IMG/VR virus record: IMGVR_UViG_3300046690_000425
Span: 1-28,411 of that record
Length of the DNA stretch: 28,411 bases
Reading direction: 5' to 3' (one strand)
DNA from: a virus
Shown here: positions 4,126-13,350 of the stretch, piece by piece
How positions within the stretch are numbered: position 1 is the first letter of the stretch
Layout: every line of letters starts with the position of its first letter
Made by a program: the position numbers and the translations under genes
The notes under the pieces: model-generated
The model's database searches: none
The model's input: the letters and a program-made list of their open reading frames with translations, nothing else
What the model was told of the DNA's origin: nothing

Positions 4126-5618
4126 GCGCGCACGCACGAAACGCCTACGAGCGGCGCGGCATTCTCGCGATATGGCCCGATGCACTCGCCGAGATGTTCG
4201 GTAGCAGCGCGCCGGAAAACGTCGAGGCCGGCGATGCGGTGATCGTGGACATTCGCGGGCCACTCGAGCAACACGCCCACCCGTGTTTCGATAGCTTCGA
4301 AGCGATCACCGCGCGTGTAGCGGCGGCTTGCGGCTCCAGTGCTCGTGCGGTGATCCTTCGATTTGATTCGCCCGGCGGCGAAGTGTCCGGCTGTTTTGAG
4401 TGCGCGCGCGCGCTGCGTGCGATGTGCACCGCGGCCGGGAAGCAAATGCACGCCTATGTCGAGGGCGATTGCTGCAGCGCGGCGTACGCGCTCGCGAGCC
4501 AATGCGACACGATCACGCTTAGCGAGACATCGCTCATAGGCTCGATCGGGATTTTCTTTTGTCGCGAGGACATCACCGCGGCGAACGCTGCGCGCGGCTT
4601 GCGTGTGGCGGTGATCACGAGTGGCGCGCGCAAGGCCGATGGCCACCCTATGGCGCCGCTCACCGATGCCGAGGTCGCGGCTACGCAAACGATCGTGGAC
4701 TCGATGGCCGGTGTGTTTTTCGAGCTCGTAGCAAGTGGTCGAGCGGCGCGCGGACTCACGGCCGAAAGCGTGGCGCAGCTCGAAGCCAAAGTGTTTCACG
4801 GCGCATCGGCCGTGGTTACAGGACTCGCCGATCAGCTCGGCGCTCTAACAACCGTGCTCGCGACGATCGCGAGTCCAGTGATCGCGACGAAAGGAATGAC
4901 AGCCATGGCTGCCGATAAATCACCGTATGAGACTGCGCGCGCGGCGTTAGAGGAAGCCGCGAAAGGCGAGGACGCAAACGCCGCTGCAGCTAAGCGCGCA
5001 CTCGCCGCGCTCGACATGCAACCCGATGGCGATGAGCCCAAGAAGAAAGATGCGCCGGCGGGCGATGACGATGCCGCTGCCGCCGCCGCCGCTGCCGGCG
5101 ATGACGATGACGATGACGCGAAAGCCGCGGCCGCCGCCGGTGCCGAACCGGATGGTGATGAGCCGCCGAAAAAAGAGGGGCGAGCTGCAGCGGCGTACCG
5201 CATCGCGCTCGCCGCGCAAAAGCAAACCGAAGCGCTACGCGCCGAGCTCGCTAAGCGTGACGTGGCGGCCGAGCGTGTGAAGCTGATCGCCTCACGGCCT
5301 GATCTCACGGCCGAGATGCGCTCACTACTCGAGCGCGCGCCCATGACGCTAGTGCGCGAGCACATCGCCGCGATGCCGAAGCTAACCGGCACGCTCGGCA
5401 ACAATCCACTCGCCACAAGCGCGGGCGTAGGTGGCACGCGCGGTGAGTCGCAAGGCTCGGGCGAAGTGTCGCACTTGCCGCCGGGTGAAAAGCAAGCCCT
5501 CGACGCACGCATGGGTTTGCTCGGCTCGGCTACGGGCGTGCACTCGACCGAGCACAAACTAGAGCTCGGCGTTTCGAAGTTCGTAGCCGCTGCAACCAAA
5601 GTTCCCAACGGGGTTTGA
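4122..5618 (+). CDS. Capsid maturation protease (S49/SppA-like) fused to scaffold domain
   Basis: Protease-scaffold polyprotein for prohead assembly. The N-terminal half (about 35-250) is an S49-family serine protease: substrate-strand motif DSPGGEVSG (82-90), likely nucleophile S119 in GDCCSAAYALAS, and likely general base K171 in SGARKADGHP. The second half (about 262-498) is low-complexity acidic Ala/Asp-rich sequence (roughly 297-350), then a helical, coiled-coil-prone segment (about 355-425) and a Gly-rich tail, as expected of scaffolds. It starts four bases inside the portal stop (ATGA). An internal start at 4905 probably makes scaffold alone, as in lambda C/Nu3. Protease identity is confident; the scaffold role is inferred from position and composition. 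Confidence 0.9.
   Translation: MSAHARNAYERRGILAIWPDALAEMFGSSAPENVEAGDAVIVDIRGPLEQHAHPCFDSFEAITARVAAACGSSARAVILRFDSPGGEVSGCFECARALRAMCTAAGKQMHAYVEGDCCSAAYALASQCDTITLSETSLIGSIGIFFCREDITAANAARGLRVAVITSGARKADGHPMAPLTDAEVAATQTIVDSMAGVFFELVASGRAARGLTAESVAQLEAKVFHGASAVVTGLADQLGALTTVLATIASPVIATKGMTAMAADKSPYETARAALEEAAKGEDANAAAAKRALAALDMQPDGDEPKKKDAPAGDDDAAAAAAAAGDDDDDDAKAAAAAGAEPDGDEPPKKEGRAAAAYRIALAAQKQTEALRAELAKRDVAAERVKLIASRPDLTAEMRSLLERAPMTLVREHIAAMPKLTGTLGNNPLATSAGVGGTRGESQGSGEVSHLPPGEKQALDARMGLLGSATGVHSTEHKLELGVSKFVAAATKVPNGV
4905..5618 (+). CDS. Nested in-frame scaffold protein (internal start of the protease gene)
   Basis: Inferred 237-residue product that starts at codon 262 of the protease-scaffold gene and keeps its frame. 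AAAGGA (4890-4895) lies nine bases before the ATG at 4905, the same spacing seen before the decoration protein gene. A nearer in-frame ATG at 4896 is too close to that site to use it. The product would contain the acidic low-complexity region, the coiled-coil-prone helix and the C-terminal tail, without protease. Lambda Nu3 and other phages with C-type proteases use this arrangement to make excess scaffold. The ribosome site is directly visible; expression is inferred. Confidence 0.6.
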   Translation: MAADKSPYETARAALEEAAKGEDANAAAAKRALAALDMQPDGDEPKKKDAPAGDDDAAAAAAAAGDDDDDDAKAAAAAGAEPDGDEPPKKEGRAAAAYRIALAAQKQTEALRAELAKRDVAAERVKLIASRPDLTAEMRSLLERAPMTLVREHIAAMPKLTGTLGNNPLATSAGVGGTRGESQGSGEVSHLPPGEKQALDARMGLLGSATGVHSTEHKLELGVSKFVAAATKVPNGV

Positions 5619-8182: not shown

Positions 8183-8751
8183 TCTTGCTCGGCCTCGAAA
8201 GCCTATACCTCGGCGTCATCGCGCAATTCGCCGTCGATGGCATGTCGAGCGTGCCGAACCTTTTTGGGTGGCGCGTGCCCGGGCAGCACATGGAAACGAC
8301 GTCCCGCATTGCGTGGGTGCCCGGCGACCCATCGGGAAATATGGGCTACACGCTGCCGGCACGAAACCCGGGCGGCGCACCGCGAACGATCGCCGTGCTC
8401 GATGAGCTCTTTACTGTCTACATCACAGGTCAAGACCCGAGCGATCCCGAGAACGAGCTCAAGCAGTACCACGCCACGCGCTTGCTTCGTGATGCGTGGC
8501 ACCGCGCCGTGTATCTGCGCGCGCACGGCACGTTTTTGATTCGCACCGAAGGTTGGGCCGTCGAAAAACTCGAGCGGCGATGGGGCGGCACGATCCGCAT
8601 TACCGCGACCATTCAATCCCCCGTGTGGGATGCGATCGGCGACTCCGATGTCATTGACGCCGTCGATGACGCGATCGCCGCCGGCACGCACGTTTCGTCT
8701 GACATTGACGTCTCACTACTCGACGTAACCGAAGGGAACATCACGCCATGA
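8179..8751 (+). CDS. Probable tail terminator/neck protein
   Basis: A 190-residue protein between the completion protein and the sheath, the usual place of the tail terminator that caps the tube and joins it to the head. It has a compact alpha/beta look, with a long helix through YHATRLLRDAWHRAVYLRAH, then FLIRTEGWAV and a strand-rich tail (GTIRITATIQSPVWD), as in Mu gp37 and lambda gpU-type proteins. ATGA overlaps link it to both neighbours. No sequence motif clinches the family. A general neck protein is the alternative. Confidence 0.6.
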   Translation: MILLGLESLYLGVIAQFAVDGMSSVPNLFGWRVPGQHMETTSRIAWVPGDPSGNMGYTLPARNPGGAPRTIAVLDELFTVYITGQDPSDPENELKQYHATRLLRDAWHRAVYLRAHGTFLIRTEGWAVEKLERRWGGTIRITATIQSPVWDAIGDSDVIDAVDDAIAAGTHVSSDIDVSLLDVTEGNITP

Positions 8752-10187
8752 CACAACCGTCCGTTATCATCACCGAGCTCGACGGCGCACTCGGCGTGCT
8801 CCCGCCCAGTGCCGGCCGCTTGCACGCCGTAATCGGCTGTAGCAGTAGCGGGCCCGTGGCCGTGCCGGCGACGTTCGGCCGCATCAAAGATGCGCAAGCA
8901 ACATACGGCATCGGGTCCATGGTCGAGGCCGCCGCGCATTACATGGCGCTCTACGGGCGGCCCGTGCTTTTCGTGCGCGCAGCATCGGCGACGGCCGGTG
9001 TGCTCGGCACCGTGACCAGCACCGCGACGGGCACCACGGTCGTAACGGCAACGGGCGTGCCGCTCGATGACTATGAGGCCGTCATCAAATTCAAAAAGGG
9101 CGGAACGATCGCCGCGGCCGGGATCACGTATGTCTATAGCCTCGATGCGGGCCGCACGTTCTCACCCGAGATCGCACTCGGTGTTGCCGTGGTCGCGGTG
9201 CTCGGCGATTCCGGCATCACGTTCGATTTCGCCGCCGGCACGGTCGTAGCCGGCGACGTTCACACGGTGCACGCCACGGGCCCGCTCTGGGATGCCACGG
9301 GGCTGCAAGCCGCGCTCACCGCGCTCGGCGCATCGGCCACGCTTTGGGAGCTAGTTCAGATCGTGGGCCCAATGGACGGCGCGGCGAGCGATGCGTGTGA
9401 CATCGCCATGGCCGGCATGGCGGCCGCGGGCAAGTACCGCGCGTGGGTCGGCGGCACGCGCATACCGACCATCGGCGAGACCGAGGCCGCATACAACACG
9501 GCCATGGGCGTGATCTCGGCAGCGCACTCGAGCAAATACGGATCGTTCTACTCGGGCGGCTGCAAGATCTTGTCCTCGATATCGGGCCGGCAGTATCGGC
9601 GCAGCCCAGCGATCGCCGCCGCCGCGCGTGAAGCCAACGTCTCGCAAGAGATCGACATTGCGGACGTGAACCTAGGCTCGCTCGAAGGCGTGACCATTCG
9701 TGACGTCAACGGCAATCCCGATGAGCATGACGAATCACTCAACCCGGGTTTGGATGATCTGCGCTTTGCGGTGCTGCGCACTTGGGACGGCGTGGGCGTG
9801 TATGTGAATCGCCCGCGCGTGTTCTCACCCACGGGATCGGACTTTCAATTGCTGCCGCATCGGCGCGTGCTCAATCTCGCCCACGAGACCGTGCGCGCGT
9901 ACTTCATACTGCGGCTAAACAAGCCGATTTTGGTCAACAAGACCTCGGGATTCATCCTCGAAACCGAAGCGCTCGAGATCGAGGCCGGCGCGAATGCGCA
10001 GCTGCGCGCGGTGCTGCTTTCGAAGCCAAAAGCCAGCGATTCGACGTTCGTGCTTTCGCGCACGGACAATCTTTTGAGCACGCGCGTGCTCACGGGTGAT
10101 CTGCGCGTGGTGCCGCTCGCATATCCCGAGACGATCCAAATTTCGGTTGGATTCACAAACCCAGCGCTGCAGCTAAGAGCGGCATGA
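8748..10187 (+). CDS. Contractile tail sheath protein (DUF2586-like)
   Basis: Subunit of the contracting sheath around the tail tube; its presence makes this a myovirus-like phage. The 479 residues start with the sheath-type MTQPSVIITELDGAL lead. Variable beta-rich insertions follow (about 80-200). The conserved C-terminal domain has YGSFYSGGCKILSSISG, a TWDGVGVYVNRPRVFSP segment (about 345-362), a subunit-linking VRAYFILRLNKPI helix, and a final strand of the RVVPLAYPETIQISVGFTNP type. It is followed by a tube gene, as expected. ATGA-coupled to the neck gene. The assignment is firm; DUF2586 is my best family placement. Confidence 0.88.
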   Translation: MTQPSVIITELDGALGVLPPSAGRLHAVIGCSSSGPVAVPATFGRIKDAQATYGIGSMVEAAAHYMALYGRPVLFVRAASATAGVLGTVTSTATGTTVVTATGVPLDDYEAVIKFKKGGTIAAAGITYVYSLDAGRTFSPEIALGVAVVAVLGDSGITFDFAAGTVVAGDVHTVHATGPLWDATGLQAALTALGASATLWELVQIVGPMDGAASDACDIAMAGMAAAGKYRAWVGGTRIPTIGETEAAYNTAMGVISAAHSSKYGSFYSGGCKILSSISGRQYRRSPAIAAAAREANVSQEIDIADVNLGSLEGVTIRDVNGNPDEHDESLNPGLDDLRFAVLRTWDGVGVYVNRPRVFSPTGSDFQLLPHRRVLNLAHETVRAYFILRLNKPILVNKTSGFILETEALEIEAGANAQLRAVLLSKPKASDSTFVLSRTDNLLSTRVLTGDLRVVPLAYPETIQISVGFTNPALQLRAA

Positions 10188-10220: not shown

Positions 10221-10700
10221 ATGGGCGATCAAATCCGCGTGAATGGGAATCAGTTCAGCTGGGGTTCCATCATTCTCAAAGTGAAAAGCGAGCGCATATA
10301 CGGCCTGACCTCGGTCGCATTTGCCGATAAAAGAGAGAGATCTTACGCCTACGGCATGGGCCGGCATCACGGCCCACGCGGCCGATCGCTCGGCAAGTAC
10401 ACGCCCGATCCTGTGAAGCTCGGCGGCTGGAAACGCACGATCCAAGACATTCGCGAGCTGCTAGCAAGCGCGTCACTCGTGGGCGAGACCGGCTACGGGG
10501 ACACGCAATTCGAGGTCGATGTCCAATACATCGAGCCGGATGAAGCCACGATCCAAGTCGTGATCGAGGGCTGCGTGTGGACGGGTAGCACCACGTCTGA
10601 CGAGGAATCGCCCGATCCACTCAAAGAGGAATTCGAATGCAGCCCGATGCTCATCCGGCGCAACGGTCTCGTGTTGTTTGATCCACGTGACGCGATCTGA
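10221..10700 (+). CDS. Tail tube protein
   Basis: Subunit of the inner tail tube through which DNA is delivered. The 159 residues start with the tube-like lead MGDQIRVNGNQFSWGSIILK. The sequence is strand-rich with a central KYTPDPVKLGGW segment. It contains TQFEVDVQYIEPDEATIQVVIEGC, written here in two parts: TQFEVDVQYIEPD and EATIQVVIEGC. The length and its place directly after the sheath and before the assembly chaperone match contractile tails. Strong AAGGAG ribosome site. Assignment is by context, length and beta pattern. Confidence 0.8.
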   Translation: MGDQIRVNGNQFSWGSIILKVKSERIYGLTSVAFADKRERSYAYGMGRHHGPRGRSLGKYTPDPVKLGGWKRTIQDIRELLASASLVGETGYGDTQFEVDVQYIEPDEATIQVVIEGCVWTGSTTSDEESPDPLKEEFECSPMLIRRNGLVLFDPRDAI

Positions 10701-10765: not shown

Positions 10766-11218
10766 ATGAGTGAACCCGAATTGACCGAGGCCGCGAAACA
10801 GCTACGCGCGCTGCGTGCGCAACGCGCCGAGCTGCAAGCCGCACGTGAAACGCTCGCGAACGATGCCGATGAGGCCGCCGCCATCGAGCGTGAGCAACGC
10901 GCACTCGCCGATGAGCAAGCGCTCGGGCGCTTGGTCGCAGAGCATGGCGCGATCGGTGTGAAGCTACAGACCATCGAAACCGATCGGGGCTTGGTCGTGG
11001 TGCAACGCCCGCACGCGCTCAAATGGCGGCGCTTCCAAGATCGTGGATCGTTCACGGTCGATGACGTCACCGCGCTAGTGCGTCCGTGCGTGGTGCACCC
11101 ATCGCTCGCCGAATTCGATCTGCTACTCGATGAGCTGCCGGCCACGCTTTCGCGCATCGCATCGGCCGTGGTCGAGCTCGCCGGACATCGCACCGGGGAG
11201 GTTTCAAAAAAATCGTAG
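10766..11218 (+). CDS. Tail assembly chaperone, short form (gpG-like)
   Basis: Chaperone expected to coat the tape measure protein during tail assembly. The 150 residues begin with a long charged coiled-coil-like helix (about 5-65: LRALRAQRAELQ, AAIEREQRALADEQ), followed by a compact domain. AAGGA lies seven bases before the ATG. The last codons contain the heptamer A-AAA-AAA in slip phase (11206-11212), six bases before the stop. That is the arrangement used to make the longer gpGT product. Sitting between tube and tape measure genes, this is the standard chaperone pair. The short form ends at TAG 11216-11218. Confidence 0.82.
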   Translation: MSEPELTEAAKQLRALRAQRAELQAARETLANDADEAAAIEREQRALADEQALGRLVAEHGAIGVKLQTIETDRGLVVVQRPHALKWRRFQDRGSFTVDDVTALVRPCVVHPSLAEFDLLLDELPATLSRIASAVVELAGHRTGEVSKKS

Positions 11219-11397
11219 AGCTGCGGGCGAAATCACGCACCGATGACGCGGTCGCGTGCCGGTGTTTGCTCGCGGCTTTGGGCGTGCGTGAGAGCGAGCA
11301 CGATAACGAGCTCGCACGCCAATATGTGGGTGCGGCTCAAATTCTCGAGTTTTTCATCGACCTCAAGATCATTCGCAAAGCTCTTACGAAAGCGTGA
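10766..11397 (+). CDS. Tail assembly chaperone, long form by -1 frameshift (gpGT-like)
   Basis: Inferred fusion made when ribosomes slip back one base on A-AAA-AAA (11206-11212). Reading resumes at 11212 and stays open for 61 codons to TGA at 11395-11397, giving about 210 residues. The extension begins IVELRAKSRTDD and includes ACRCLLAALGV and QYVGAAQILEFF. It has no start codon of its own nearby and fills the only gap between chaperone and tape measure. GGGGAGG (11195-11201) just upstream is a Shine-Dalgarno-like stimulator. Small hairpins at 11222-11239 and 11238-11264 lie downstream. Lambda G/GT-type slippage is well established for this gene position; efficiency is unknown. Confidence 0.8.
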
Positions 11398-11406
11398 CGC
11401 GCACCC

Positions 11407-13350
11407 ATGGCCGCCGACAACACCGCCGAGTTTCTGCTCAAGCTCAAAGATGAGATGAGCGGCAGTGTTGAGTCCGCGACACAGGCGCTGAAAAAACTGC
11501 AGACCGAGATCGTCAACGAGGGTAAAGCGCTCGCCGATATGCAAAAGGCGATGCGTAATCTGAAGGCCGCCGGGCAAGAAAATACCGATCAGTTCAAGTC
11601 GCTGAAAGCTTCGATTGACGCAAAAATCAGCTCGATCGGCAAACTACAATCCGCATACGTCGAGCTCGGCGGCAAGTTCGGCAGCGCGGGCACCGGCGCC
11701 AAAAGCCTAAAGCAACGCATGGCCGAGCTCGTGAGCGAGTCATCGAAGCTGCCCGGGCCGCTCGGGCAGATCGGCTCGGCTGTCAGTAGCTTGATCACTA
11801 AGATGGGTGGCCTAGGCCCGGCCGTGGTCGCGGCCGGGTTTCTCGCGATCGGTGCTGCGGCCGTGGTCGCCACGGGCGCGCTCTTGTCATACGGCGTAGC
11901 GGTGCAAGACACACGGCGCGATGAGCTTTTGCAGCTTGAGGGAATGACTAAGCTTCGCAGCATGTGGGGATTCGCGGGCGGCAACGCTAAGGAAATGCAA
12001 GACTCGCTCGATGAGGTCGCGGCGTCCTCGGCGCTCGGGCGCGATGAGCTCGCCGGCTTACAGAAAGAACTGTATGGCCTAGGGCTACGCGGCGGGAATC
12101 TCTCGAGCGCGTTGCAAGGCGTAGCGATCAAGACATCGACGCAAGGCAAAGCGGCGGGCGCAGCATTCGCGCAAATGGCGGCCGGCGCGAATTTGATGGG
12201 TCAATCGGTCACGAAAATGACTGATCGCGTCAAATCGCAGCTCGGCGGCCTCGCCCAAAAGCAAATGCTGTCGCTCACGGTGCAAGCCAAAAAACAGAAG
12301 GAAGCCTACAACTCGCTATTCGGTAACATCAAGATCGAGCCTTTTCTTGCCGCACTAAAGATGGTGCTCGACTTGTTTGGGCAAGGCACCGCGGCCGGGC
12401 GCGGCTTGAAAGAAGTGATCACGGGTTTGTTGCAACCGTTGCTCGACGGCATCACCAAGCTAGCGCCGCAAGCGCGGGCGTTTTTCGATGGCCTAGTGCT
12501 CGGCGCGCTCGATGTTGAGTACGCGTTCATACTGCTAGGCAAGTGGTGGGATCACACGTTCGGCGATGACAAAAAGCATCAAGTCGAGACGTTCGAGGAC
12601 ACTTTTGATCTAGCGGCCGATGCCGTCAAAGGGATCACGGGCGCGCTCACTGCGCTCGGTGTTTTGTTCGCGGGAAAGTTCGCGCTCGATGTGCTCGGCA
12701 CGCTCGGCAAGATGCAAATGAGCATGCTGAAATTTGTTGCCAAAGCAGTGATCGCCGGTGCCGAGACTGCCGTTGCGTGGGCGCCCGTGGTCGCCGAATT
12801 CGCGCTTATGGCGCTGCCGTGGATTCTCGCGGCGGCGGCGCTTTGGGGTTTTTGGCAAATTTTGAAGCTCGTTTACACGATTTGGGATCAGCTCGATTGG
12901 ACGGACATCGGTCGCAACCTATGGAAGGGGATCGTTGACGGCATCACGGCCGGCTACACGGCGATCAAGAATGCCGTTAGTGGTTTGGCGAAAGCCGCAA
13001 TGGACACGCTCAAAAGCGTGTTGGAGAGTCATTCGCCGTCCAAAGTGTTCGCGCGCATCGGACTCGAGATCCCGGCGGGCGTCGAGCAAGGCATAGACCA
13101 GGGCGCGCCGGCCGTGAGTGACGCGGCCGCCGACCTCGTGACGGTACCGTCCGCACCCGCAGCGGCGGGCGGCGGCGGGCGCGCAGCCGGCGGCGGCGTG
13201 ACCATCACCATCGGCGAGATCGTGATCCAAAGCGCCACGGACAAGCCGCGTGATCTCGCTATGGCGTTTCGGCGTGAGCTTGAGTCCGTGCTCGAGTCCG
13301 TGGCGCTGCAGCTCGGCGCGCCCGCGGCCGGCACACCGGCGGGAGCGTAA
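11407..13350 (+). CDS. Tail tape measure protein
   Basis: Sets tail length, fills the tube and is ejected with the DNA. The 647 residues begin with coiled-coil helices (about 10-115). Hydrophobic segments at about 137-167, 410-428 and 455-492 look membrane-spanning, and the Gly/Ala-rich C-terminal region carries the common tape-measure motif SHSPSKVFARIG-LEIPAGVEQGI. A Gly-rich linker (GGGGRAAGGG) precedes a final beta/helix segment. It is short for the family, implying a short tail, around 90-100 nm if the usual 1.5 angstroms per residue holds. It begins nine bases after the frameshifted chaperone stop. No lysozyme or peptidase domain is seen inside it. Confidence 0.9.
   Translation: MAADNTAEFLLKLKDEMSGSVESATQALKKLQTEIVNEGKALADMQKAMRNLKAAGQENTDQFKSLKASIDAKISSIGKLQSAYVELGGKFGSAGTGAKSLKQRMAELVSESSKLPGPLGQIGSAVSSLITKMGGLGPAVVAAGFLAIGAAAVVATGALLSYGVAVQDTRRDELLQLEGMTKLRSMWGFAGGNAKEMQDSLDEVAASSALGRDELAGLQKELYGLGLRGGNLSSALQGVAIKTSTQGKAAGAAFAQMAAGANLMGQSVTKMTDRVKSQLGGLAQKQMLSLTVQAKKQKEAYNSLFGNIKIEPFLAALKMVLDLFGQGTAAGRGLKEVITGLLQPLLDGITKLAPQARAFFDGLVLGALDVEYAFILLGKWWDHTFGDDKKHQVETFEDTFDLAADAVKGITGALTALGVLFAGKFALDVLGTLGKMQMSMLKFVAKAVIAGAETAVAWAPVVAEFALMALPWILAAAALWGFWQILKLVYTIWDQLDWTDIGRNLWKGIVDGITAGYTAIKNAVSGLAKAAMDTLKSVLESHSPSKVFARIGLEIPAGVEQGIDQGAPAVSDAAADLVTVPSAPAAAGGGGRAAGGGVTITIGEIVIQSATDKPRDLAMAFRRELESVLESVALQLGAPAAGTPAGA

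Follow-up and report, generated by a model that had tools for sequence, protein, structure and literature searches.

A conserved −1 frameshift site predicted to yield a gpGT-like extended tail assembly chaperone in Mu-like contractile-tailed phages

In phage lambda, the tail chaperones G and GT are produced by a frameshift (Levin 1993; Xu 2004, 2013, 2014, as reviewed in PMC5009743). Tail chaperones made by frameshifting are widespread, but not all phages shift the same way (−1, −2 or +1): Mu uses −2 (PMC5009743). A −1 site of another kind is that of E. coli dnaX, where the slip site A_AAA_AAG is followed by a stem-loop; the spacing of stimulatory Shine-Dalgarno sequences is 9-14 nt for −1 sites and 3 nt for +1 sites (PMC5009743).

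The window analysed here, the whole stretch of 28411 bases, is a virus contig with a Mu-like gene order: portal (Portal_Mu), S49 protease, Mu-like gpT capsid, DUF2586 sheath, putative tube, chaperone, tape measure and baseplate J. The chaperone slot is flanked by the tail tube and sheath genes on one side and by the tape measure gene on the other. As judged from the sequence of this slot and of its relatives, a −1 programmed frameshift very probably yields, besides the short tail chaperone, an extended gpGT-like form. The features concerned are the following:

8748-10187, plus strand: contractile tail sheath (DUF2586; PF10758, E 5.8e-18; PHROG 907, E 2.7e-21)
10221-10700, plus strand: putative tail tube protein, from its position after the sheath; kept in relatives
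10766-11218, plus strand: 0-frame short form, putative tail assembly chaperone (gpG-like) of 150 aa; an ORF with a same-slot homologue in 54 loci and a predicted C-terminal fold
11195-11201, plus strand: GGGGAGG, Shine-Dalgarno-like, of doubtful role; 4 nt from the heptamer, the motif standing at 9-14 nt in 3/42 relatives
11206-11212, plus strand: slippery heptamer A AAA AAA in −1 phase, from the sequence and the heptamers of relatives
11212-11397, plus strand: −1 frame extension of 61 codons plus TGA, putative T-like domain; kept in 42 distinct relatives, with dN/dS and AlphaFold evidence
11216-11218, plus strand: 0-frame stop TAG; directly 3' of the heptamer in 35/42 and one codon further on in 7/42, the window among these
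11216-11280, plus strand: predicted downstream stem-loop, 11216-11231 with 11265-11280 (region z −2.56; helix scan z 6.6; slide control)
11407-13350, plus strand: tape measure protein, the gene after the chaperone (PHROG 58, tail length tape measure, E 1.9e-21)

Like lambda G/GT, this arrangement occupies the gene directly 5' of the tape measure, has its −1 shift shortly before the upstream ORF ends and continues in an extension that lacks a start codon. It differs from lambda in that the family has no detectable sequence similarity to annotated chaperone families, belongs to a contractile-tail, Mu-like context, ends its 0-frame at the heptamer or one codon later, and has a conserved downstream stem. 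Phage Mu resembles the window in the gene slot and in the order of the head and tail genes (Pfam matches to Portal_Mu and Mu-like gpT); however, the shift is −1 in the window and in the other loci read, but −2 in Mu. With E. coli dnaX the site shares an A-rich slip sequence and a stem-loop a few nucleotides downstream, whereas dnaX relies on an upstream Shine-Dalgarno sequence (9-14 nt, against 4 nt in the window) and the product of its shift is the shorter one. The first-pass annotation had assigned the locus to the lambda G/GT kind of mechanism, with which gene slot, in-phase heptamer, startless extension, conservation and predicted chaperone fold all agree.

The ORF 10766-11218 ends in frame as TCA AAA AAA TCG TAG, and A AAA AAA at 11206-11212 fits the canonical heptamer pattern X XXY YYZ in exact −1 phase; its sequence, phase and coordinates had been read correctly in the first-pass annotation. 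That the heptamer lies near the stop also held, but the distance of six bases did not: three bases (TCG) separate the two, and six bases reach the end of the stop. Across the 23 window genes (6938 codon positions), in-phase X XXY YYZ heptamers with Y = A or T occur 12 times, and in-phase A AAA AAA a single time, at the chaperone end. From 11212 the −1 frame reads ATC GTA GAG CTG and so on, and direct reading confirmed the earlier claim that it stays open for 61 codons and closes at the TGA at 11395-11397, nine bases before the tape measure ATG at 11407. The predicted frameshift product is thus 149 + 61 = 210 aa long. Beyond several window genes that do not overlap the next gene, the −1 frame was closed after 7-23 codons; in GC-rich DNA an open −1 frame of 61 codons is by itself no more than suggestive. 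A 71-aa ATG-initiated ORF in the third frame (11243-11458) was ruled out as a gene because relatives have the stop of that frame at unrelated places.

Since a direct tblastn search with the chaperone against phage records gave no match, relatives were collected with the sheath gene (8748-10187) as query, which yielded 60 viral loci; the chaperone alone as query retrieved a single identical contig, L002 (IMG/VR). Our counts cover the 54 loci with a readable chaperone end, window included, which correspond to 42 distinct fusion proteins. In 54/54 loci the 0-frame ends at the heptamer or one codon after it and is followed by a −1 extension of 59-71 codons that runs to about the tape measure start. 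Loss of the heptamer or of the extension in relatives, named beforehand as grounds for rejecting the frameshift, was not seen, both being kept in 42/42 distinct relatives. The two-frame arrangement is also found in independent relatives, L065-L069 from bacterial genomes and the cultured phage Mx4 (L062). A sequencing error, a pseudogene or a chance open frame could be suspected, homopolymer runs being error-prone and long open frames being common in GC-rich DNA, but this explanation is refuted, its probability negligible, by the identical sequence in contig L002, by the two-frame layout in 42 distinct proteins from diverse contigs and by purifying selection on the extension.

Some relatives show further variation in the tail module. 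L044 (6960-7935) and L050 (6455-7030) carry extra DNA, roughly 1 kb and 0.6 kb, with little or none in other relatives, in the tube-chaperone and sheath-tube intervals, respectively. In L051, L054 and L061 the main sheath match does not begin until residue ~56-81, at locus position 5502-5580 (sheath about 5001-5580), suggesting an insertion of ~110 residues near the N-terminus of these sheaths. L066 and L067 are two closely related copies of the tail module on separate contigs of one deltaproteobacterial MAG (UWPOB_DELTA5).

The letters of the heptamer vary among relatives, but an A-rich YYY core is retained. The A7 of the window is a minority version of the conserved site, because most of the distinct sequences have GGGAAAA (27/42); AAAAAAA is found in 7, GGCAAAA and GGAAAAA in 2 each, and GGGAAAG, CGGAAAA, GTCAAAA and CTCAAAA once each. 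Heptamers of the XXXYYYZ type or near it are thus present in 38/42 and imperfect ones in 4, and poor re-pairing of the P-site tRNA is expected for 4/42 (GGCAAAA twice, GTCAAAA, CTCAAAA); it may also be poor for a fifth, CGGAAAA. Contigs from bacterial genomes add L065 and L069, a Sorangium cellulosum prophage (both GGGAAAA), L066 and L067 (both GGGAAAG), and L068, which reads GCG GGG AAA TAG and whose heptamer was called as GGGGAAA by script. Lambda's heptamer is GGGAAAG, which is also the version in the relative L046 and in the held-out loci L066 and L067. Imperfect heptamers (GTCAAAA, CTCAAAA, GGCAAAA) stand beside a conserved extension at L041:2467-2473, L049:7040-7046, L014:4855-4861 and L043:7387-7393; that of L041 differs from the GGGAAAA of its near-identical relative L032. 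To judge from their heptamers, such loci may shift via the A-site AAA only.

The same variation bears on transcriptional slippage, in which RNA polymerase would insert an extra A at the A7 run and part of the mRNA would itself encode the fusion. An A7 run is present in the window and in six relatives, an A8 run in Mx4; polymerase slippage is documented, for example in Thermus dnaX (PMC5009743), and could contribute at the window site. However, most relatives read G GGA AAA, with runs of three or four identical bases, and have the same extension, while the phase of the heptamer and the adjacent stop suit tandem tRNA slippage. As the source of the fusion, transcriptional slippage is therefore very improbable.

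We next consider the two products of the proposed ribosomal frameshift. Against Pfam and PHROGs the window chaperone gave nothing significant; PHROG 5128, whose function is unannotated, was matched by 14/41 members of the chaperone family. The short form and the extension were folded as two separate models. In that of the short form (mean pLDDT 82.5) a long N-terminal helix precedes a C-terminal domain (residues ~60-147), for which the top PDB matches were 3fgx (Z 8.4), 5ir0 (Z 5.9), 3klu YqbN (Z 5.7) and 2ob9, the HK97 tail assembly chaperone (Z 5.7). The Z values are middling and mutually consistent, and the gene position agrees; the model thus resembles tail chaperones of solved structure.

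The extension evolves as protein-coding sequence in the −1 frame, as the comparison of relatives indicates. An alignment of 40 extensions, in which the others are 25-57% identical to that of the window, has nearly invariant residues I1, L4, A16, L19, R36, G40 and A41. In close pairs the third positions of the −1 frame change most and dN/dS is 0.04-0.30, indicating purifying selection. Together with the heptamer and extension found in all 42 distinct relatives, this supports the original proposal of a gpGT-like chaperone made by −1 frameshifting. AlphaFold predicted the extension to be all helical, with three helices (mean pLDDT 95.8). Nothing recognisably related to it turned up in Pfam, PHROGs or the PDB, so that its putative role as a T domain rests on position; neither its model against viral and PDB structures nor its profile against PDB sequences gave a convincing match.

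Which elements might stimulate the shift? The motif GGGGAGG is present at 11195-11201 as the first-pass annotation stated, but it is not placed as a stimulatory Shine-Dalgarno sequence should be, its 4 nt spacing misfitting the 9-14 nt rule for −1 sites (PMC5009743). In relatives the distance from such a motif to the heptamer is mostly 4-8 nt, and six lack it. Among 30 representatives, upstream anti-Shine-Dalgarno pairing is mildly stronger than in synonymous shuffles (−8.2 vs −7.2, sd 0.43). Given the spacing and the mild enrichment, a role of GGGGAGG as a −1 stimulator is doubtful.

The motif could instead serve re-initiation near the chaperone stop at a non-canonical codon, the extension being then a separate small protein and no fusion being made. 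Consistent with this, GGAGG stands 10 nt 5' of the ATC in the −1 frame, upstream pairing is mildly above the shuffles, and the Mx4 counterpart p58 is annotated as an ORF of its own. However, the extension frame of the window has no ATG, GTG or TTG in its first 18 codons, that is, ahead of codon 19, which bears out the earlier claim that it lacks its own start; only 11/42 relatives have a start codon within the first 13 codons, and re-initiation would give the conservation of the heptamer no reason. We consider it even less probable than transcriptional slippage.

The −1 frameshift would more plausibly be aided by structure on the 3' side. Two hairpins, 11222-11239 and 11238-11264, had been suggested; both pairings exist but neither is more stable than shuffles (z −0.85 and −1.18), and the conserved structure is instead a longer stem, 11216-11231 with 11265-11280. 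This stem of 16 pairs accounts for the fold z of −2.56 of the 98 nt after the heptamer; its family core comprises ten pairs, 11218-11227 with 11269-11278, and it starts 3-5 nt 3' of the heptamer. In 30 representatives under 60% identity, aligned in ungapped family coordinates, the core formed 213/300 possible pairs, against 173.6 (sd 5.9) in synonymous-codon shuffles, and was, against such shuffles, the best of 1596 helices in a register scan (z 6.6; spread of the scan 1.65), where a second register (sum 63) also scored high, probably through shared GCTC repeats. A stem of this kind was present in the minimum free energy (MFE) structure of 20/30 representatives (8.5 expected, null maximum 13). 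In a slide control, 73% of cells were paired in register and no more than 54% once the partner was moved; covariation was 0.257 in register and did not exceed 0.144 after the move.

The stem was first noticed on the same sequences on which it was tested, and L065-L068 and Mx4 served as held-out loci. Out of ten core pairs, L065 forms 9, L066 and L067 8 each, L068 4 and Mx4 3; L069 forms 4/10 but is not independent, its extension being identical to that of L060 of the first set. The MFE structure lacks the stem in about a third of representatives. RNAalifold found no consensus structure on the junction, probably because about a third of loci leave the register, and Rfam gave no match. All together, the comparisons indicate that across the family the stem is selected over and above what the encoded protein demands, as a common element; it is not a universal one, since it is not seen in Mx4 or in about a third of loci.

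Mx4 (OK085710) has the same chaperone and extension as p57 and p58, with an A-rich −1 site (GAA AAA AAA GAC CTC TGA; both parts at L062:6877-7424); p58 is the −1 extension of p57 and matches the family extension profile. Unlike in the window, the family stem is not evident there, and the two are annotated as separate hypothetical proteins; the Mx4 genome paper makes no mention of a frameshift. In Meiothermus phage MMP7 (L063:7150-7331) and Thermus phage Riverbug (L064:7145-7315), whose sheaths are homologous, an extension lies in the +1/−2 frame, beside GAT TTT CGG and CGA TTT CTG, respectively; in MMP7 it is annotated as a separate ORF. When only three sequences were searched with the family profile, these extensions gave E 9e-6 and 4e-6. 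The shift direction thus appears, from these reading frames, to have switched within one sheath family, because the homologous extension of MMP7 and Riverbug sits in the +1 (or −2) frame. For a joint reading the balance is even: that a long stem-loop (~10 core pairs, ~40-nt loop) within the extension codons is the main stimulator, and that the direction switched between soil and myxobacterial phages (−1) and Thermus and Meiothermus phages (+1, or −2, at UUU-C) with a homologous extension.

The sequences show the site and its phase, a conserved heptamer, stop and extension, purifying selection on the extension, a predicted chaperone-like fold and selection on the stem; that shifting takes place, how efficient it is and what the stem and the individual protein domains do we infer. 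The majority of ribosomes would translate 10766-11218 and stop at the TAG, making the short, gpG-like chaperone. In a minority, tRNA-Lys on AAA AAA of A-AAA-AAA would slip one base back, probably aided by the stem-loop that starts 3-5 nt downstream, with slow decoding close to the stop as a possible further help, and these ribosomes would read 61 further codons to 11397, producing the gpGT-like fusion of 210 residues. By analogy to lambda, many short chaperones and a few fusions would coat the tape measure protein, the helical extension recruiting tail tube subunits.

The general mechanism is itself textbook and of the kind known from lambda G/GT; the frameshift was previously unannotated and lies in an unstudied phage group related to a Myxococcus virus. 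It adds a well-conserved case to the Mu-like contractile phages, with a cultured relative in Mx4, suggests a function for the unannotated family PHROG 5128 and reveals a second product that had been missed. It also offers a natural comparison between −1 and +1 solutions to one tail-assembly problem.
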